Part shown: positions 2,871-15,668 of the stretch, one piece after another
Numbering within the stretch: position 1 is the stretch's first letter
Layout: each line of letters opens with the position of its first letter
Source of the DNA: a virus
IMG/VR virus record: IMGVR_UViG_3300043444_000307
Span: 1 to 22,757 of that record
Length of the DNA stretch: 22,757 nt
Direction: 5' to 3' (one strand)
Program-made: the position numbers and the translations under genes
Notes under the pieces: generated by a model
Seen by the model: only the letters and a program-made list of their open reading frames with translations
The model's database searches: none
What the model was told of the DNA's origin: nothing

Positions 2871-4601
2871 TTATTTATAAGTTGGTGAGAAATAATCATA
2901 TATTTGTGTTATTTCAGTTCCGCTTAACTGTCTATTGTAAAATAATACTGGTCCTATTTGTCCATTGAAATAGTATCCGTTTTCTATATAATTACCACCG
3001 ATTTGTATCAAACCGGATGTCGTATATGTTTGAGAACCATTTGATACAGTTCCTCTCGATGTAGTATCTGTGTATGCCACATTTGTACCATCTGCTTTTG
3101 CTGTATAGGAAATCATATACCAAGTATTCGTATTTAAAGTAAATGTATTACTATTAAATTGGATAGGAGTTCCATCATGTATAAAATATGTACCACTACC
3201 ATTTGAATTCAAATATAATGATATTAATCTATTAGCCGTTCCTGATGTGTTTTGTTTGTTGAAAAAGCTATAATATCCATTAGCGGGATGCGATGCAAAT
3301 CTAACCCAAGTTACAACAGTGTATTCCGATGCATTAAATTGAGTATAACCACCATTGATATTAGTTGTACCATCTTTATACCAAAATGCATCAGTAGCAC
3401 CTTGCCAATATTTTTCTTTTCTAGTACCTCCGGCATTATATGCAGGATTTGCTTTACCACTAATACCAGCCGCATTTGATACGCCGGCAGGTCTCATACC
3501 GGTATTGTATCCACTTAAATCTAACCAATCCGTAGTTGCCGTACCATTTGTTGATGCTGCTTTGGATGGGTCTAAGTACATTCTTAAACCTGAAGATGGA
3601 ATAAATGGTTGTGCAGTTGTACCTTTGTTATGCGAAATTAAACCATTTGCTATATAAACGTCAGCATCTTCCACATTTACAGTTACAATTTCAACATCTT
3701 CTCTAACTAATTCAATATTAGTTACTTCTACTTCCGTTTCATCTTCCATAATTAACTTATCGCCAATTATGATATCTCCTATATTTTTAAATTTATATTT
3801 TTGAATTTCAGAATCCCAAACATATAATGGGTGAGTTTCCGTTGCTTTGATTAAACCATCGTTCAATGAAACATATCCTTCTGCAAAATTAAAGGTAACA
3901 TCCTTAACAGTCACATTTTGTGCAGTTCCTTCTAATGATGTTGAAAAATGGAATCTCCAATCAACTTGGTCAGATTCTGCGTCTTGAGTTTCATCAGGTA
4001 ATCCTGCTGGCACCCAAGATTTAATTTGGTCACCAACATTTAAATCTTCTACATTTACTTCAGTACCATCTGCTAATTCAATCTTTGTTCCAAATAATAA
4101 ACAAAAATCAGGTTCATTGATTGTATTGTAAACATCAACTGCGTATAATACTTTTGTTGTTACACTACCATAGTTGGTTGCATTAACATTATAACCATCC
4201 TGATATTTCATTGTTAATGTTGCAGATGCTTCCGAATAATTAGATTGTGCAATTGAAGCTGCGTTAATTGGAAATACCGATGGTCCTGTTGTTTTTGTAG
4301 CAGAAGATGCGTTAAAATTCGCATTATTAAATGAACAAGTAAAATTTGCGGTTTGTGATTGTACTTTGTTGTAAAATTGAGAACCAGTTGAAGAAAATGA
4401 AAATTGTGCATTTTCCGTTGTACTCTCTACTATATAAGTATATGTTGGTGGAGTTACAGTGATTGCATCAGTTGCAAATCCCAACATATTGATATTACTA
4501 CCACCTCCATTTAACTGTCCTAATGAAACGGCTTGAGATGTTCTAACTGAACCACTAACCGCTCTATGTAAATTTCCTAATGATAAGTTTGTTCTTGCCA
4601 T
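2871..4601 (-). CDS. Fibre/adhesin with internal Hint (intein-like) domain and C-terminal LamG-like domain
   Basis: This 576-residue protein has three parts. Residues 1-166 begin with a fibre-like segment containing SLGNLHRAVSGSV and SLGQLN, then a Ser/Thr/Asn-rich beta region. Residues 167-325 form a Hint domain: Cys167 opens block A (CLLFGTKIELADG, then VEDLNVGDQI), a T254-x-x-H257 motif followed by Pro marks block B, and the end reads YIANGLISHN with His324-Asn325. The next residue is Lys326, not the Cys/Ser/Thr needed for canonical intein splicing, so it resembles A-type bacterial intein-like (BIL) domains. There is no room for a homing endonuclease. Residues ~335-576 look like a LamG/concanavalin-type jelly roll, with a final FNGQIGPVLFYNRQLSGTEI segment typical of LamG_3 folds, suggesting glycan binding. 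The gene lies between a glycosyltransferase and the tail sheath. It is probably a self-processing virion adhesin, but its exact virion location is unknown. Confidence 0.8.
   Translation of the reverse strand: MARTNLSLGNLHRAVSGSVRTSQAVSLGQLNGGGSNINMLGFATDAITVTPPTYTYIVESTTENAQFSFSSTGSQFYNKVQSQTANFTCSFNNANFNASSATKTTGPSVFPINAASIAQSNYSEASATLTMKYQDGYNVNATNYGSVTTKVLYAVDVYNTINEPDFCLLFGTKIELADGTEVNVEDLNVGDQIKSWVPAGLPDETQDAESDQVDWRFHFSTSLEGTAQNVTVKDVTFNFAEGYVSLNDGLIKATETHPLYVWDSEIQKYKFKNIGDIIIGDKLIMEDETEVEVTNIELVREDVEIVTVNVEDADVYIANGLISHNKGTTAQPFIPSSGLRMYLDPSKAASTNGTATTDWLDLSGYNTGMRPAGVSNAAGISGKANPAYNAGGTRKEKYWQGATDAFWYKDGTTNINGGYTQFNASEYTVVTWVRFASHPANGYYSFFNKQNTSGTANRLISLYLNSNGSGTYFIHDGTPIQFNSNTFTLNTNTWYMISYTAKADGTNVAYTDTTSRGTVSNGSQTYTTSGLIQIGGNYIENGYYFNGQIGPVLFYNRQLSGTEITQIYDYFSPTYK
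2872..2879 (-). promoter_or_regulatory. Possible T4-type late promoter core (TATAAATA)
   Basis: The coding strand reads TATAAATA here, identical to the T4 late promoter -10 element. It is 72 bases upstream of the sheath ATG and overlaps the TAA stop of the Hint/LamG gene. The same octamer also occurs inside coding sequence (for example 4781-4788 and 17748-17755), so chance occurrence in this AT-rich DNA is quite possible. Confidence 0.25.
3627..4103 (-). other. Hint / bacterial intein-like domain coding segment
   Basis: This is the part of the preceding gene encoding Cys167 to Asn325 (159 residues), a minimal Hint module without an endonuclease. The Cys codon is at 4101-4103 and the Asn codon at 3627-3629. 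All hallmark residues for N-terminal thioester formation and Asn cyclisation are visible: Cys1, TxxH and the terminal His-Asn. Only the +1 nucleophile is replaced, by Lys. From the family, cleavage at one or both ends or inefficient splicing could be expected. Which of these occurs cannot be read from sequence. Confidence 0.8.
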
Positions 4602-4611
4602 TTAATTTTGA

Positions 4612-5610
4612 TTATAATCTATTATAAATATCTAAAAGTTTTTGTTTCCACATTTCTTTATTAGAAAAGTGTTGAATCATCCAACTTTTAAGTTTTTCAA
4701 ATTCATTTTTACGGGTTTCGTAATCATCCTCACATATCGTTTCGTAGGTCTTACTAAACGATATCTTGTCAATCGCTTTGTATTTATAATCAAGTGGTAG
4801 GTGCCATTTTTGGTGTAGTATTGGAAGTTTCCCCCAATCCACAGCTTCAAATATTCCGTATCCAAATGGTTCAAATTCAAAGCAAGAATGAGAGATTCCC
4901 CAATCAAGTCCATAGAACCTTTCTTTATATTTGTAATCAAATTTGTAAACCTTTGATTTTTCAAATTTATATCCATATTTCTGTTTATAATATTTGTTGA
5001 ATGTTTCGGAATTGGTAGAAATATAACTTTCCAATCCATCAATATATTCAACATTTTTTCTACCCTCTACTCTAGCTGCAAATCCAATTTTGGTAGATTC
5101 TGATAAATCTTTATTTTTTATAAATTCGTAATAGTTTGGAATATGGTATAAGTTTTCCGTTTCATATGGAAAATGATATAATCCTATCCAAATTTTATTT
5201 TTAATTTTATTTATTAATTCTGTTTCCCATTCCCAATTACCATACCAATGCAAATATTCATCTTTTTGCATTTGTCCAATCATCGATACTTTTGTCAAAT
5301 TATGGAAAACAATTGAATCAATTTTCTCTAAATTATTATGTATTGCCGTTGTTGGTGTATAGTGACCATGTAAGATATGAATTTTTCTAGCTCCTTTCAT
5401 AATCTCATCTATTTCCAATTCATTGGTTTCCCAAATATGGTCTATGTTAATTGGAAATTGTTCGTAGTTATTGGGCTTCTTTCTATGGAACAAAAGAAGT
5501 GGTTTCACTTCTAAATGTGGCGCCACTTCTTCTATCCATTTTGTTACCCATATATCAGCACCGCTGTTAAACCAAGGTCCTCCAGCGGTGGTGTAGTAAA
5601 CATCATACAT
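4612..5610 (-). CDS. GT-B fold glycosyltransferase (GT4-like)
   Basis: This 332-residue protein looks like a retaining GT-B glycosyltransferase of the 'glycosyl transferase group 1' type, which transfers a sugar from a nucleotide-sugar donor. The C-terminal Rossmann half carries two landmarks: IGFAARVEGRKN at residues 175-186, where the family has 'GR...KN', and E247-x7-E255 in FEFEPFGYGIFEAVDWGK, the classical EX7E donor-binding motif followed by the 'G.P' turn (GKLPI). The N-terminus (MYDVYYTTAGGPWFNSG) fits the glycine-rich first strand-loop. It starts only 3 bases after an S74-type fibre gene and is probably co-transcribed with it. Its neighbours suggest it may glycosylate a fibre or other virion protein, but the acceptor could equally be phage DNA or a host surface molecule. 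There are no membrane segments. Donor and acceptor are unknown. Confidence 0.75.
   Translation of the reverse strand: MYDVYYTTAGGPWFNSGADIWVTKWIEEVAPHLEVKPLLLFHRKKPNNYEQFPINIDHIWETNELEIDEIMKGARKIHILHGHYTPTTAIHNNLEKIDSIVFHNLTKVSMIGQMQKDEYLHWYGNWEWETELINKIKNKIWIGLYHFPYETENLYHIPNYYEFIKNKDLSESTKIGFAARVEGRKNVEYIDGLESYISTNSETFNKYYKQKYGYKFEKSKVYKFDYKYKERFYGLDWGISHSCFEFEPFGYGIFEAVDWGKLPILHQKWHLPLDYKYKAIDKISFSKTYETICEDDYETRKNEFEKLKSWMIQHFSNKEMWKQKLLDIYNRL
4623..4631 (-). promoter_or_regulatory. ATATTTATA box upstream of the Hint/LamG gene
   Basis: An exact coding-strand ATATTTATA lies 21 bases before the Hint/LamG start. It sits inside the last codons of the glycosyltransferase gene, so that gene's 3' end appears to double as the promoter region of the next one. 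Confidence 0.42.
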
Positions 5611-5613
5611 TAA

Positions 5614-7611
5614 TTATAACCCTTTTTGTTTCTTTAAATTTTCTACTTCAACAGTTAAATTATCTATTTTGATTTGTTGCTCTTTGATTGCTTCAATCAA
5701 TAAACCTACCATTTTAGCGTAATCCAAACCTAAGTATCCATCTTCTTTCTCCTTAACAACCTGTGGTAATACTTCTTGTACTTCCTGTGCTATTAAACCA
5801 GTTGTTGGAGCTGCTTTAGTTACTTCGTTTACATTTTCATTCCATTCCCAAGTTACACCATTTAATTTTTTAACTTTATCTAATGCGTTTGGAATAGTTT
5901 GAATAGTATTCTTATATCTTCTATCCGAAGAATAGTATGCTGTAATATCACCCGTTGCTGTAATTGCTCCATTGATTGTTAAACCTGCGAAAGTTGGAGA
6001 TGCCGATGTTGCTACCGATTGTCCAATTGAAATCGTATGTGCAATACCTTCACCGGTCGTTGCGCCTGTTGAAGAAACCCCCGTTCCAGCGGTTATAGTT
6101 GCTACATAGTTTCCAGATGTTCTACTTCCTAATGCAATATCTCCTGTTGTAGATGCGACATCTATTTGAGATGAACCGGAAACAATTCCATTAGTTGCGT
6201 TTATTGTACCATTGAATGAAGTACCCGTTATCACTCCAGCTTTAAATGGTGCTAAAGTAAATCCGGTTCCGGATGTATTAACAGTTCCAATTGTTTCATC
6301 TTGCAAACTATTGAATACCTTCCATGTATGCCCATCACTTGCATCCATAAACACACCAGCGTGTCTATAAGTTCCATCATTATAATGTCCAACGATACCT
6401 AAATCGTTATCAGATGATGCAGTTGGTGCTAAATAAAGGATATTATCTGCAATTTCAACATTTTGTGAATTGATTACAGATTGAGTTCCCCAAACTACAA
6501 TATCTCCTAAGAAATTAACTTTAGAACCTGTCACTTGAAAAGCCCCAAGTAATGAACCAGTATATGCGTTTAAATTAGTTTGAGATGATAACAATGATGC
6601 CGTTACACTAGCCAATGTAGAGTTTTTAGTTTCTAATGATGCAGTGTAAGTTCCTAATGTTGAAAATTTAGTATCAACCGATGCAGTATATGTTGCTAAT
6701 GTAGAATTTTTAGTTTCTAAACTCGCAGTATATGATGCTAGTGTTGAAAATTTAGTATCAACCGATGCAGTATATGTTGCTAATGTAGAATTTCTAGCTT
6801 CTAATGAACCCGTTTCTGCTTCTAATGAAGCTAATCTCGCATTTTGTTCGGATTGTTCGATTGCAATAGAACCTGTTTTGGTTTCTAATGCAGCTAATCT
6901 ATCATTTTGTGTATTGTTTGTGTTTGTACTTGATGTATAAAATGCGGCAAAAGCGTTATCGTTTGTAGTATCAACTGAATTGATTAATGTTACGATTTCA
7001 GCAAATGAATCTTTATCCGCATCTGCCGCTGATAAAATGGCATCAACTCTTCCTTTTTCAGTTAAAATTCTACTATCAACCGAAGAAGAATAAGAACTAA
7101 ATCCCGTTGTATTTGTTATAGTAATTTGAGATGAACCAGAAACTACATTTTCAGAATTTAATTTATCTTTAACTCTATTATCCGTATAGTAAAGATATGT
7201 GCCTTCCGATACATTCGTTGTGGTATTTCCCGTTACATCTGCTAAATTAACTTGCGATGAGCCAGATATTACAGTATTTGCGTTCAATTCGGTTTTTACT
7301 CCCGATGCAAAGTTTGTTGTTGCGGTTGCATCTATTTGCGATGAACCACTAATTAATCCATCTATATTAAATAATGTATCAATTTGTGCGGATGATGAAA
7401 TAATACCTCTACCCTGTGTTTCATATCTTTCATCATATGAGCTTGTGAATTGAGATGAACCAGAAATAATACCAGCTGCGGATGCAAGTGTTACATCTCC
7501 GGTATCAAGTCCGATTTGTAGAGTTCCTAATGATGTATTTACATACGGCTCTCCGAATGCTAACGAACCTGATTTTTGTGCGGTTGTCCCACGTCTAAAT
7601 TTAAGTGCCAT
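5614..7611 (-). CDS. Tail fibre with C-terminal S74 intramolecular chaperone
   Basis: This 665-residue protein is a likely trimeric tail fibre or spike. The N-terminus (MALKFRRGTT ... LAFGEPYVNT ... LQIG) resembles the Mtd/T4-like fibre attachment domain. Next come several SGSSQ/SSSAQ junctions, then a Ser/Thr coiled-coil region with 28-residue tandem repeats (about 270-353). Residues ~372-483 form a beta module almost identical to one in the upstream fibre. The C-terminal ~105 residues are a Peptidase_S74 chaperone: YYSSDRRYKNTI places Ser562 and Lys567 five residues apart, as in the endosialidase Ser-Lys dyad. This is followed by GLIAQEVQEVLPQVV and a terminal coiled coil. In that family the chaperone trimerises the fibre and then cleaves itself off before the Ser. 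An AAGG-containing leader lies about 10 bases before the ATG, one of few Shine-Dalgarno-like sites here. Confidence 0.85.
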   Translation of the reverse strand: MALKFRRGTTAQKSGSLAFGEPYVNTSLGTLQIGLDTGDVTLASAAGIISGSSQFTSSYDERYETQGRGIISSSAQIDTLFNIDGLISGSSQIDATATTNFASGVKTELNANTVISGSSQVNLADVTGNTTTNVSEGTYLYYTDNRVKDKLNSENVVSGSSQITITNTTGFSSYSSSVDSRILTEKGRVDAILSAADADKDSFAEIVTLINSVDTTNDNAFAAFYTSSTNTNNTQNDRLAALETKTGSIAIEQSEQNARLASLEAETGSLEARNSTLATYTASVDTKFSTLASYTASLETKNSTLATYTASVDTKFSTLGTYTASLETKNSTLASVTASLLSSQTNLNAYTGSLLGAFQVTGSKVNFLGDIVVWGTQSVINSQNVEIADNILYLAPTASSDNDLGIVGHYNDGTYRHAGVFMDASDGHTWKVFNSLQDETIGTVNTSGTGFTLAPFKAGVITGTSFNGTINATNGIVSGSSQIDVASTTGDIALGSRTSGNYVATITAGTGVSSTGATTGEGIAHTISIGQSVATSASPTFAGLTINGAITATGDITAYYSSDRRYKNTIQTIPNALDKVKKLNGVTWEWNENVNEVTKAAPTTGLIAQEVQEVLPQVVKEKEDGYLGLDYAKMVGLLIEAIKEQQIKIDNLTVEVENLKKQKGL
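6163..6498 (-). repeat. Duplicated fibre module, copy B
   Basis: This segment encodes about 112 residues (372-483 of the 665-residue fibre) that are near-identical to 8226-8555 in the neighbouring fibre gene. Shared runs include DNDLGIVGHYNDGTYRHAG and GTGFTLAPFKAG. DNA identity is also high by eye, pointing to recent duplication or gene conversion between the two fibre genes. Confidence 0.8.
6553..6804 (-). repeat. Three tandem 84-base coding repeats
   Basis: Three consecutive 28-residue units (fibre residues 270-297, 298-325 and 326-353) begin LEARNSTLATYTAS, LETKNSTLATYTAS and LETKNSTLASVTAS. The first two are nearly identical at DNA level and the third has diverged. They look like heptad-based trimeric coiled-coil units (4 x 7 residues) that lengthen the fibre shaft. 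Confidence 0.75.
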
Positions 7612-7655: not shown

Positions 7656-10514
7656 TTATTTGTTTTCCAAATCCTTAACTTTTGCTGATAATTCTTTTAT
7701 AGCTTCAATTAATACTGGAACTAATTTAATATAATCCACTGCTAAATAACCTGTTTCTCTTTCAGTTACGATTTCAGGCAATATTGATTGAACTTCTTGT
7801 GCAATTACTCCTAAATCATTTCCTATGTGAGAATGTATATTTTCAAATCCTTCTTTCCAATCATAAGTGTTACCACTAATTGCTTCAACTTTTGATAAAG
7901 CATTTTGGATAGGTTGGATATTTTCTTTTAATCTTTCATCTGATGAATAGTATGCGGTAATATCACCAGTTGCTCTAATCTCACCACTCACACCACTAGC
8001 TGCCGTTCCGATTCCTAATGAACCAAATTGAACATCGGAAGTTGTAGAACCACCGGTTGTTGATGAAAGTGTAATTTGAGATGAACCACTAACTACTCCC
8101 AATGAATTATTATATGCTAAAACATTTGCATCAAAGTTAGTAATTGAATCGGCATTTACTTGAGATGAACCACTAAATAATGTGTGCGTTGCACTAGCTT
8201 TTTCTTCAAATACCGATGTGATTTGTGCAGATGATGATATGACACCATTGGTTGCATTAATTATACCATCGAATGAAGTAGCAGTTATTGCACCTGCTTT
8301 AAATGGTGCTAAAGTAAATCCGGTTCCGGATGTATTTACTGAACCCGTTGTTTCATCTTGTAAACCATTAAACACCTTCCAAGTATGCCCATCACTAGCA
8401 TCCATAAAAATACCAGCGTGTCTATATGTACCATCATTATAATGTCCAACGATACCCAAATCATTATCAGTAGAAGCCGTTGGTGAAAGATATATAATAT
8501 TATCATTTACTGATAAATTTTCCGAATTAATTACAGATTGCGTTCCATAAACAGTAATACTTCCTAAAAATACAGTGTTTGAACCTGTAATCTGAATTGC
8601 TTCTCTAATGGATGCAGTGTAAGTATTTAATCCACTTAATGATGTATTAACACTTGATGTATAACTTTCTAATGTTAAGTTTTTACTTTCTTGTGATGAA
8701 GTAAATGAATTCAATGAATCCAATACTCCAACGATTTGCGCAGAAGATGAAACTAATGTATGTGTAGCAGATGCTCTTTCTTCATATGTGGTTGATATTG
8801 AAGAACTCCAAACATTTATCGATGCCGATGTTGATTCTAAATTATTTAATCTAATTGCAGCAGATGCGGTAAATGCTTCTAATTGTGAGAAAGCAAGTTG
8901 TGCTCCAGAACCTAAATTTATGGAAGTTGTATATTCCAATTCATCTAATCTAGAATCAACCGATGTACTGAAATTTGAATAAGTTGATGCTGTAAATTGA
9001 TTTAAAGATGAAGTGTGAATGTTATATGATGCGGTTATACTTTCAATTATTGTAAATTTATTATCAATACTTGAAGTATAAGTTTCTAAGGTCGTTGCTT
9101 TACTTTCTAAATCATCAATTCTTATTTCGTGATTTGATGCGGTAGAAAATAATTCAACTAAACTTGCGGTTACTGAACCTGTAAATCCGTTGTAAGATGC
9201 AGTTATGTTTGATATAATTGTATCTTTTTCATTTTGAGATGAAGTCCAACTATTTAAATCCAAAATATGACCATTAACACTTTGTGTAAATGTGTTTAAT
9301 GATGCGGTAGCACTATTATATGATGCAGTTATTTCACTAATAATTGCAAATTTATTTTCAAATGAACCCGTTTTTATGTTTATATCGGATATATGTCCGT
9401 TAAAACTAGCCGATTCAATTTGTAAATGTTTTAATCTATCATCAACAGACCAAGAATATTCAGTTACACTTGCACCATTCAATCCAACGATTGTAGAAGA
9501 ACTAATTGAACCCAAAATTCCTAAATTCGTATTTATTCCGAATCTATTATTTGAATCTTCCCAACTCATCGAAACATTTGCACCAGCTACTTCAAATCCC
9601 GCTCCATCAGCTGCTGCTGAATTTGATGAACCACTTGCTACTGTTATTTTATAATCTTCAATATAAACATTTGTGGTATTTAATGATGTTTGAGTACCAT
9701 CTACTATTAAATTACCCTTTATTCTCGTATCACCCCCGGCTACATCTATTGCAGTTTTTAATGAAGCAGTATATAATTCAATTTCATTCAAACTAATATC
9801 AGTAGATGCTGTAAATAAATTCATAGAAGCAGTGTATGCTCCAATAATTACATCTTTAGCTTCTTGTGAAGATGTGAATATATTCATTGAGGATGTATAG
9901 TTTCCTATGATTATATCTTTAGCTTCTTGCGAAGATGTGAATGATTGTAAAGAAGCAGATGCTAATTGTAATTGGTCTAATCTATCATCAACCGATGCAG
10001 TATAAGTTTCTAAAGTATCAGCTTTATCTTCTAAAGTTGTAATTCTTGTATTTTGAGAACCACTATCAGATTCTAATTGGTCTAATCTATTATCAACAGA
10101 AGAACTAAATGTAGTTATGTTGATTCCATTAACATCACCATTAAGTGAACCTGTAAATGATGTAGCGTAAACATTTTTCCAAACTTTTGATGTAGAACCA
10201 ATTGAATATGTATTAGTTGGATTTGGAATTAAATCGGATGTAAATTCACCCGTAGCGGTAATTGTATCAGATGTTTGATTACCCAAAAATAAATTACCCG
10301 AAACATTCAAATTACCACTCACAAACATATGAGATGCGGTAATTTCTCCAATTAAATTTATGTTACCTTCAACCGGCGCATCTAAAGTTAAAACATTATA
10401 ATTTGCAGAACCACTACCTATTTGTAATGAACCAGAACCCTGGTGTAAGTATAATTCACCTTCCGCAAGTGATACATTTGTTGTTCCCCTTCTTATTTGA
10501 AATATTGCTGCCAT
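7656..10514 (-). CDS. Long tail fibre with C-terminal S74 intramolecular chaperone
   Basis: This 952-residue likely trimeric fibre starts with MAAIFQIRRGTTNVSLAEGE, the 'RRGT ... GE' N-terminal signature shared with its neighbours. The shaft is a long series of Ser/Thr-rich coiled-coil units (YTASVDDRLDQL, FTSSQEAKD, GHISDIN). These are interrupted by two beta modules: residues ~267-318 (with AADGAGFEVAG), shared with the 729-residue fibre, and residues ~654-763, shared with the 665-residue fibre. The last ~100 residues are an S74 chaperone: AYYSSDERLKENI gives Ser858 and Lys863, the five-residue-spaced catalytic dyad, then LGVIAQEVQSILPEIV and a terminal coiled coil. Autocleavage would be expected just before Ser858, based on the family. 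It is the longest gene in the window and the likely long fibre, though its virion location is inference. Confidence 0.85.
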   Translation of the reverse strand: MAAIFQIRRGTTNVSLAEGELYLHQGSGSLQIGSGSANYNVLTLDAPVEGNINLIGEITASHMFVSGNLNVSGNLFLGNQTSDTITATGEFTSDLIPNPTNTYSIGSTSKVWKNVYATSFTGSLNGDVNGINITTFSSSVDNRLDQLESDSGSQNTRITTLEDKADTLETYTASVDDRLDQLQLASASLQSFTSSQEAKDIIIGNYTSSMNIFTSSQEAKDVIIGAYTASMNLFTASTDISLNEIELYTASLKTAIDVAGGDTRIKGNLIVDGTQTSLNTTNVYIEDYKITVASGSSNSAAADGAGFEVAGANVSMSWEDSNNRFGINTNLGILGSISSSTIVGLNGASVTEYSWSVDDRLKHLQIESASFNGHISDINIKTGSFENKFAIISEITASYNSATASLNTFTQSVNGHILDLNSWTSSQNEKDTIISNITASYNGFTGSVTASLVELFSTASNHEIRIDDLESKATTLETYTSSIDNKFTIIESITASYNIHTSSLNQFTASTYSNFSTSVDSRLDELEYTTSINLGSGAQLAFSQLEAFTASAAIRLNNLESTSASINVWSSSISTTYEERASATHTLVSSSAQIVGVLDSLNSFTSSQESKNLTLESYTSSVNTSLSGLNTYTASIREAIQITGSNTVFLGSITVYGTQSVINSENLSVNDNIIYLSPTASTDNDLGIVGHYNDGTYRHAGIFMDASDGHTWKVFNGLQDETTGSVNTSGTGFTLAPFKAGAITATSFDGIINATNGVISSSAQITSVFEEKASATHTLFSGSSQVNADSITNFDANVLAYNNSLGVVSGSSQITLSSTTGGSTTSDVQFGSLGIGTAASGVSGEIRATGDITAYYSSDERLKENIQPIQNALSKVEAISGNTYDWKEGFENIHSHIGNDLGVIAQEVQSILPEIVTERETGYLAVDYIKLVPVLIEAIKELSAKVKDLENK
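8226..8555 (-). repeat. Duplicated fibre module, copy A
   Basis: This segment encodes residues ~654-763 of the 952-residue fibre, including DNDLGIVGHYNDGTYRHAG and GTGFTLAPFKAG. It is almost identical to 6163-6498 in the adjacent downstream fibre gene. Confidence 0.8.
9561..9716 (-). repeat. Shared 'ADGAG' beta module, copy 1
   Basis: This encodes residues ~267-318 of the 952-residue fibre (NLIVDGTQTSLNT ... ADGAGFEVAG). A diverged copy is at 12361-12516 in the 729-residue fibre (DLVVQGNTTTLNT ... ADGAGLEIAG). The similarity is clearer in protein than in DNA, so this duplication is older than the 6163/8226 pair. Confidence 0.6.
9816..9941 (-). repeat. Two tandem 63-base coding repeats
   Basis: Two consecutive 21-residue units (residues 192-212 and 213-233 of the 952-residue fibre) both begin FTSSQEAKD and continue I/VIIG.YT.SMN. 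The unit of 3 x 7 residues fits a coiled-coil shaft that grows by heptad-multiple duplication. Confidence 0.7.
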
Positions 10515-14903: not shown

Positions 14904-15668
14904 TTATTTTATATAAACTGCTAATGTATTAAAGTTGGATGTAATTGCATTAGTTGTTGTATTAACATTTGCCAATCCATAAACAGTATTATTCAATCTA
15001 TTTGTCCAACCTCCCGTTCCTAAAGCATTTCCACTTCTACCATAAGGTGCATCGGGATAAACATTTGTAGGGCCGTTTGTAGTCCACCAGTTTGCGGTAT
15101 CGTACAACCAATCACAAGGTGCTGCGACGGGCAATGAACCTGTCATAAATGTATATCCTTTTAATGCAGTCCAACTACCTGTCAGAGGTGCTGAAAGTTT
15201 TAAGATTTGTGTTGCTCTTGTATCAATATCCAATACATTCGGATTATTATAAACAGTCTGATGTGCAATACTACAATTTGATAAATGTGGTTGAACCGAT
15301 GCAGTTGATGCCATTCTCATTACCGAATTACATTGTGCAGAACCCGATGTTGAATACCAAAGATTTTCTGCATTTCTATAATGTTTAATAAATGATGGAG
15401 TTTGTAAACTTCCACTATCTGCATTTGGGTATGGATAACCCAATTGTGTTGAACCCGATGGATTATATGATATCAACATCCAACCACCACCATTGTCCGT
15501 TTGGTTACAATAAACTTGCACCGAACTTGTCATCATATTTGTCTTTATCCAATACCAACCATTTGTTCTAACTCCGGCATTGTATAATTGAACGGCAGAT
15601 AGGGCAGGATTTGAGAATGTTCCCAAATTTGCACCTATTGTTACCCCATTTACAAATGTTATTGCCAT
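14904..15668 (-). CDS. Fibrinogen C-terminal-like adhesin
   Basis: This 254-residue protein resembles a fibrinogen-related (FReD-type) carbohydrate-binding domain. The key segment is RTNGWYWIKT (34-43), then VQVYCNQTDNGGGWMLIS (50-67). This matches the family pattern 'G.Y.I .. V.C....GGGW.L', with Cys54 and the GGGW at 60-63. Three other cysteines (113, 132 and 185) could form disulfides. The first ~30 residues (ITFVNGVTIGANLGTFSNPA) look like a beta-strand connector. It starts 1 base after the stop of the 883-residue fibre, so the two are translationally adjacent and may act together, with this protein as a separately encoded tip binding host surface glycans. This is a family-pattern call by eye, and specificity is unknown. 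Confidence 0.7.
   Translation of the reverse strand: MAITFVNGVTIGANLGTFSNPALSAVQLYNAGVRTNGWYWIKTNMMTSSVQVYCNQTDNGGGWMLISYNPSGSTQLGYPYPNADSGSLQTPSFIKHYRNAENLWYSTSGSAQCNSVMRMASTASVQPHLSNCSIAHQTVYNNPNVLDIDTRATQILKLSAPLTGSWTALKGYTFMTGSLPVAAPCDWLYDTANWWTTNGPTNVYPDAPYGRSGNALGTGGWTNRLNNTVYGLANVNTTTNAITSNFNTLAVYIK

Follow-up and report, generated by a model that had tools for sequence, protein, structure and literature searches.

In a Hint domain that begins with Cys1 and carries a block-B His and a terminal His-Asn pair, Cys1 can become a thioester and cyclization of the Asn can break the bond at the C-terminal end; no branched intermediate arises when the +1 residue is not Cys, Ser, or Thr. The absence of a +1 nucleophile defines the type-A bacterial intein-like domains (BILs), for which the reviews consulted describe the behavior in vitro rather than the role in the host. 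Type-A BILs that end in His-Asn without such a nucleophile mostly undergo cleavage and sometimes splicing, and for splicing an attack of the free amine of the released fragment on the thioester has been proposed (PMC4031507). In polymorphic toxins, HINT domains immediately precede C-terminal modules that are exchangeable, and their presumed role is to set these modules free (PMC3482391). For BIL2, an isopeptide linkage to the ε-amine of a Lys has been reported, the reactive Lys being part of the following ubl domain and not stated to occupy +1 (PMC8616854). In the open-access literature, to which the search was confined, no paper was found that joins intein, LamG, and phage, and the papers found do not describe the adhesin Hint analyzed here.

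The DNA analyzed is a viral stretch of 22,757 nucleotides (IMG/VR record IMGVR_UViG_3300043444_000307), referred to as the window, in which the preliminary description had recognized an intein-like Hint domain with Lys at +1 inside a virion adhesin. We are moderately confident that this is an active autoprocessing domain, which would work like a type-A BIL and cut between Asn325 and Lys326, and which has become a permanent part of a tail adhesin in T4-like phages.

Domain architecture and genomic setting

In the 576-aa protein, Cys167 starts the sequence CLLFGTKIELADG as the first Hint residue, T254-x-x-H257 sits within KATETHPLYV, and H324-N325 are the last letters of YIANGLISHN, directly followed by Lys326 (Table 1). 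Pfam matched the protein to PT-HINT (0.0024) and Intein_splicing (0.0064), in neither case reaching the gathering cut-off, and found no homing endonuclease match in the 159-residue Hint. The score against PF07591, the polymorphic-toxin HINT family, was 18.5 bits for the window protein (cut-off 27.7), and a relative in G009 reached 28.5 bits by six-frame search and 26.1 bits as protein; the phage members thus score around or below this cut-off. A profile search by sequence with the phage Hints retrieved 6TMM (2.5e-10) and 2LWY (5.2e-10). In addition, Foldseek against the PDB retrieved 6Y75 (BIL2 from the Tetrahymena thermophila BUBL1 locus; 8.1e-9, target TM ~0.74–0.75) and 2LWY (a C. thermocellum BIL; 2.0e-7, target TM 0.79). 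Together with blocks A, B, F, and G, these matches firmly assign the domain to the Hint (Hedgehog/intein) superfamily. The position and motifs first proposed for it were confirmed to the exact coordinate, and the analogy to A-type BILs held, given the HN terminus, the lack of Cys, Ser, or Thr at +1, and BIL domains as the nearest solved relatives. An AlphaFold2 model of the adhesin, built from 27 family members, had a mean pLDDT of 78.9. Its confidence fell below 50 at residues 158–164 and 326–330, near both Hint ends, where the model presumably marks flexible joints on either side of the domain.

Table 1. Position of the Hint domain, its key residues, and neighboring features in the window.
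Feature	Position	Strand	Basis
Putative Hint-containing tail adhesin, 576 aa	2871–4601	−	ORF; 45 distinct homologues; flanked by glycosyltransferase and tail sheath in all contigs of sufficient length
N-terminal anchor domain, residues 1–166	4104–4601	−	Conserved; never found without Hint
Hint domain, residues 167–325	3627–4103	−	Pfam, profile search, Foldseek; 177 distinct relatives
Cys167 codon, position 1, block A nucleophile	4101–4103	−	177/177
T254-E-T-H257, block B	3831–3842	−	His 177/177, Thr 176/177
His324-Asn325, block G	3627–3632	−	177/177
Lys326, +1 residue	3624–3626	−	177/177; codons AAA and AAG
Gly327, +2 residue	3621–3623	−	174/177
C-terminal exchangeable cassette, residues 326–576, LamG/ConA-like (Pfam match 418–564)	2874–3626	−	Pfam and structure match; exchange at HN/K boundary
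Predicted GT-B-type glycosyltransferase gene, 332 aa, constant neighbor of the Hint gene	4612–5610	−	Model pLDDT 88.6; Foldseek probability 1.00
Tail sheath gene (context)	544–2799	−	PF04984, PF17482, phrog_23
Tail tube gene (context)	9–497	−	PF06841

The N-terminal half is conserved and mostly beta, with a repeated SLGNL-like motif, and Pfam assigns nothing to it in the window protein; its earlier label, fibre-like, is a loose one. The C-terminal half matches LamG (PF13385, 1.7e-13). Structurally it resembles ConA-like lectin domains, with Z ~21 to the AbnA C-terminal domain and 19.4 to a cyanophage tailspike chain, matches that reflect a common fold only.

The gene is flanked by the tail sheath and tail tube genes on one side and by the 332-aa gene and long fibre genes on the other, and it is this position, together with the LamG domain, that makes the product a putative virion adhesin. 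Wherever the contig reaches, the order glycosyltransferase, Hint protein, sheath, and tube is kept without exception in this large T4-like tail-module family, and a gp23 T4-like major capsid protein was found in six of seven long contigs searched. The 332-aa gene lies directly upstream on the same strand, usually at a gap of ~10 nt. Sequence libraries, Pfam and PHROGs among them, gave no name for its product; its AlphaFold2 model showed a GT-B fold in Foldseek, matching BshA, WaaG, PimA, and T4 beta-glucosyltransferase (query TM ~0.55–0.70), which points to a GT-B glycosyltransferase by fold. As a reasonable guess, this enzyme may add sugar to the adhesin or the fibres. Moreover, in LR756508, a distant phage of 484 kb, a Hint protein ending in HNKH adjoins a homologue of the glycosyltransferase (36% identity), indicating that the pairing is old. 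No relative turned up when the LR756508 Hint protein served as query, or when cellular genome contigs were scanned with either the glycosyltransferase or the Hint.

Besides the Hint, the tail module in the window encodes another type of self-processing domain, an intramolecular chaperone of the Peptidase_S74 family (2e-17) in a long fibre protein (5614–7611, minus strand). The C terminus of another long fibre protein (7656–10514, minus strand) is like that of the first by eye. A small protein (14904–15668, minus strand) has a weak fibrinogen C-terminal-like match (1.8e-5) and is another likely binding module. In a 237-kb contig, a gp23 major capsid match (G005:C1:95809-97233) contains one internal TAA stop, possibly an error or a recoded stop.

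Conservation of the Hint domain and of Lys326

Viral contigs were searched with the whole protein, the Hint, the neighboring gene, and the N-domain alone, which gave 356 usable loci, some on the same contigs. Removal of identical sequences left 177 complete distinct Hint domains; the +1 residue was not a selection criterion, and loci from a search whose pattern contained HNK were left out of the +1 statistics. C167, T254, H257, H324, N325, K326, and G327 were invariant in 45 distinct homologues, in which the neighbors of T254 vary, and the same set was invariant in 125 distinct Hints with pairwise identities down to 26%. In the full set of 177, C167, H257, H324, N325, and K326 were each retained throughout (Table 1), and the three exceptions to Gly327 were Ser twice and Asp once. 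Strict invariance was found at 15 of 185 aligned positions in the 125 sequences, Lys326 among them. At most invariant positions the codons vary synonymously (CAT or CAC for His, AAT or AAC for Asn, and for Lys AAA in 119 and AAG in 6 of the 125), a pattern indicative of selection at the protein level. The residue preceding Cys1 is Phe, Leu, or Tyr.

Loss of the catalytic Cys, His, or Asn in homologues had been named beforehand as evidence against the proposal; these residues proved to be conserved in all 177 distinct domains of the family, each of which also has Lys at +1. Lys326 is therefore as invariant as the catalytic residues and is likely functional, beyond a mere missing nucleophile. 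Its earlier portrayal as non-canonical is correct in that no Cys, Ser, or Thr is present, and falls short in treating the residue as a simple lack, since it never varies.

The +1 residue was also compared with Hints outside the family. In a small sample of 12 plasmid-borne Hints of soil and environmental bacteria, most of which bear a polymorphic-toxin annotation, it was Cys in five, Ala in three, Ser in two, Thr in one, Asp in one, and Lys in none, which shows, within the limits of this small sample, that Lys at +1 is not a general Hint feature. Other phage Hints carry Thr, Val, Ala, or Lys. Detectable sequence relatives occur in tail modules of large phages (Erwinia pEa_SNUABM_32, Yersinia fHe-Yen9-02, NCTB, and LR756508); unlike the adhesin Hint, they form the C-terminal end of virion proteins, with ~2–10 residues after HN and T, V, A, or K at +1. 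HNK is found near the very end of three distant or paralogous phage Hints, namely those of NCTB (HNKVD), LR756508 (HNKH), and a tandem-Hint protein (HNK).

Collagen-like virion proteins of Erwinia and Yersinia phages (L067:5104-6543 and L068:4083-5525) have the Hint at their end and ~10 residues from HN to the stop. The tandem-Hint protein, of ~755 aa, is a second protein with three tandem Hint-like stretches on two contigs, 245 kb and 198 kb long, where the Hint adhesin is encoded as well (L286:1860-4124 and L287:3665-5932); its first stretch ends in THN right before Cys1 of the second, and its last ends in VHNK at the stop. Two ~240-aa genes near it on both contigs are sugar-transferase-like by eye, and in L286 a 2OG-Fe(II) oxygenase-like gene follows it.

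Block F differs from that of the known BILs. Position 307, the probable counterpart of the Asp that class-1 inteins such as Mtu RecA have in block F, is Thr or Ser only in the 177 domains, and in the profile alignment 2LWY has Asn there. Position 314 is Asp in 158 of the 177 and His in 19, and both BIL structures have His. This departure, and the fact that autocleavage would disconnect the adhesin, are in favor of a Hint that is catalytically silent in the virion, a folded spacer whose residues are kept for folding or assembly. We regard such a spacer as improbable: Cys1, the block-B His, and the terminal His and Asn stay invariant while most positions change, and a spacer has no need for Cys1, HN, and a fixed +1 residue together.

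A canonical mobile intein that recently lost its +1 nucleophile would have the same fold and the same blocks A, B, F, and G. That origin is extremely improbable, given Lys at +1 in all distinct domains, the lack of an endonuclease domain, a position that parts the anchor from non-homologous, exchangeable partners, and the absence of an intein-less allele from 343 loci. The Hint was present in 343 of the 345 loci that have the glycosyltransferase gene, the remaining two being cut by the contig end, and none of the family loci has the N-domain without the Hint apart from two fragments cut in this way. As no Hint-less allele was found, the Hint is a module fixed in the family rather than a mobile intein. 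The S-PM2 protein p090 was considered as a Hint-less version and rejected, because it has a LamG domain and lacks a related N-domain.

Membership in the described intein classes was likewise rejected. A canonical (class 1) intein is contradicted by Lys in place of Cys, Ser, or Thr, by the lack of an empty-site allele, and by the missing endonuclease. Class 3 inteins have no Cys1 or Ser1 and use a block-F Cys for catalysis, whereas all the phage domains have Cys1 and a block F with Thr or Ser. Hedgehog-type Hints have no HN and are followed by an adduct recognition region, whereas HN is present in all phage domains and a LamG or Fn3-like domain follows.

Four single contigs carry an interrupted reading frame: an in-frame TGA lies inside the Hint in L101 (5962-5964), and L040, L047, and L081 have frameshifts in the LamG domain or the Hint. 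Programmed events were rejected as their cause since they are isolated and lie in differing places; they are probably sequencing errors or decayed copies.

Exchange of the C-terminal cassette

In most relatives the partner after the Hint is a LamG domain; several LamG types occur, and their identities fall as low as 23%. Another branch of the family has an Fn3-like C-terminal domain of ~100 aa (fn3 3e-4 in L203, below the cut-off). The Hint and the HNK motif are retained while the partner changes. In two loci, L080 and L083, a stretch of 2,507 nt that covers the last part of the glycosyltransferase gene and the whole of the N-domain and Hint is 97% identical at the DNA level. This identity extends up to the HNKG codons (CACAAyAAAGGAACAACAACACAACCA) and then drops to 66%, the two lectins being ~40% identical as proteins. 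This drop indicates that the lectin was exchanged as a cassette, with an edge no more than ~25 nt away from the predicted cut. The opposite pattern occurs in other pairs, with Hints ~60% identical and the lectins behind them ~90% identical. That the Hint separates the N-terminal half from a lectin half can thus be put more strongly than at first, as the lectin is exchanged at the HN/K junction itself. The idea that HNKG is invariant only because its DNA gives recombination a stretch of homology was discarded as a sufficient cause, because its codons vary and the motif is kept down to 26% domain identity.

This arrangement resembles several known systems in part. With the A-type BIL of C. thermocellum (2LWY), the phage Hint shares the Hint fold, Cys1, the block-B T-x-x-H, a C-terminal His-Asn without a nucleophilic +1 residue, and variable partners; it differs in belonging to a phage tail protein, in having always Lys at +1, and in that its activity is predicted. 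A-type BILs are set in variable, non-conserved bacterial proteins, whereas in the phage genes only the C-terminal partner is variable and the N-terminal anchor is conserved. As in the polymorphic toxins (PF07591), the predicted processing domain is preceded by a conserved stalk and followed by a C-terminal module that is exchanged, but the module is of adhesin type (LamG or Fn3-like) and not a toxin, and Lys+1 was never seen in the sampled bacterial Hints. BIL2 (6Y75, 6TMM) is the best profile and structural match among Hints; it dispenses a ubiquitin-like domain in a ciliate, whereas the phage Hint is flanked by anchor and lectin. Lysine amine chemistry is reported for BIL2 itself, and the phage Hint has an invariant Lys at +1.

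Predicted processing of the adhesin

For the BIL-like autoprocessing that we favor, the following course is proposed. Once translated, the Hint would fold, and Cys167 would attack the carbonyl of Phe166 to form a thioester by an N–S acyl shift, with help from T254 and H257. Transthioesterification of the intein type would be impossible because +1 is Lys. Asn325, aided by His324, would cyclize and cut the Asn325–Lys326 bond, releasing the receptor-binding cassette with an N-terminal Lys-Gly, and the anchor thioester would then be hydrolyzed or captured by an amine. The cut at this bond is expected from the Cys1, His, and His-Asn set, from Hint chemistry, and from the behavior of type-A BILs (PMC4031507).

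The invariant catalytic set, a fold nearest to that of BILs, joints modeled as flexible, and cassette exchange at HN/K all argue for autoprocessing, whereas the departure of block F from known BILs, with Thr or Ser at 307 and mostly Asp instead of His at 314, argues against it; an active domain is what the conservation would predict. By analogy, release alone may be expected as the commonest BIL outcome, which is also the role of polymorphic-toxin HINT domains (PMC3482391). Against release, it is hard to see what a phage would gain from parting the adhesin from its anchor, unless both parts remain in contact or become ligated again, and the distant phage Hints end ~10 residues or fewer after HN, so that a cut there would free only a short tail. 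The interpretation first offered is supported in part: BIL-like autoprocessing is the best reading, and a mixture of products or two adhesin states from one gene is speculation.

Since Lys at +1 is invariant, ligation via a lysine amine has to be considered beside cleavage. Here, the Phe166 thioester would be captured by the amine of Lys326, either the α-amine after Asn cyclization or the ε-amine before or after it, so that the Hint is excised and anchor and lectin are joined by a peptide or isopeptide bond into a continuous mature adhesin. We hold this possibility tentatively, as a minority reading. In its favor, the +1 residue is as fixed as the catalytic ones whereas +2 varies, Lys is absent from +1 in the sampled bacterial Hints (C, A, S, T, or D), and the phage would gain little from loss of the lectin. 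Attack of a free amine on the thioester is moreover a published proposal for type-A BILs (PMC4031507), and BIL2, the closest solved Hint, reportedly forms an isopeptide bond to a Lys ε-amine (PMC8616854). However, that Lys is described in the following ubl domain and not stated as +1 (PMC8616854), and the three distant or paralogous phage Hints ending in HNK and 0–2 residues have almost nothing to join. A novel splicing chemistry, in which the amine (ε or α) of the invariant Lys replaces the Cys, Ser, or Thr nucleophile at +1 and captures the anchor thioester, with excision of the Hint and joining of anchor to cassette, possibly via an isopeptide bond, seems to us unlikely. The invariant Lys at +1, in place of Cys, Ser, or Thr, suggests adhesin processing through a variant form of protein splicing.

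This natural phage family, represented by hundreds of sequenced loci, has a BIL-like domain that is obligatory, a +1 residue fixed as Lys, and a predicted cut at the very boundary where recombination exchanges the receptor-binding cassette. It therefore makes testable both the natural role of Hints without a +1 nucleophile and the post-translational processing of an adhesin at the joint where its binding modules are exchanged. If splicing through the lysine amine is true, phages could swap receptor-binding cassettes at a chemically defined joint.
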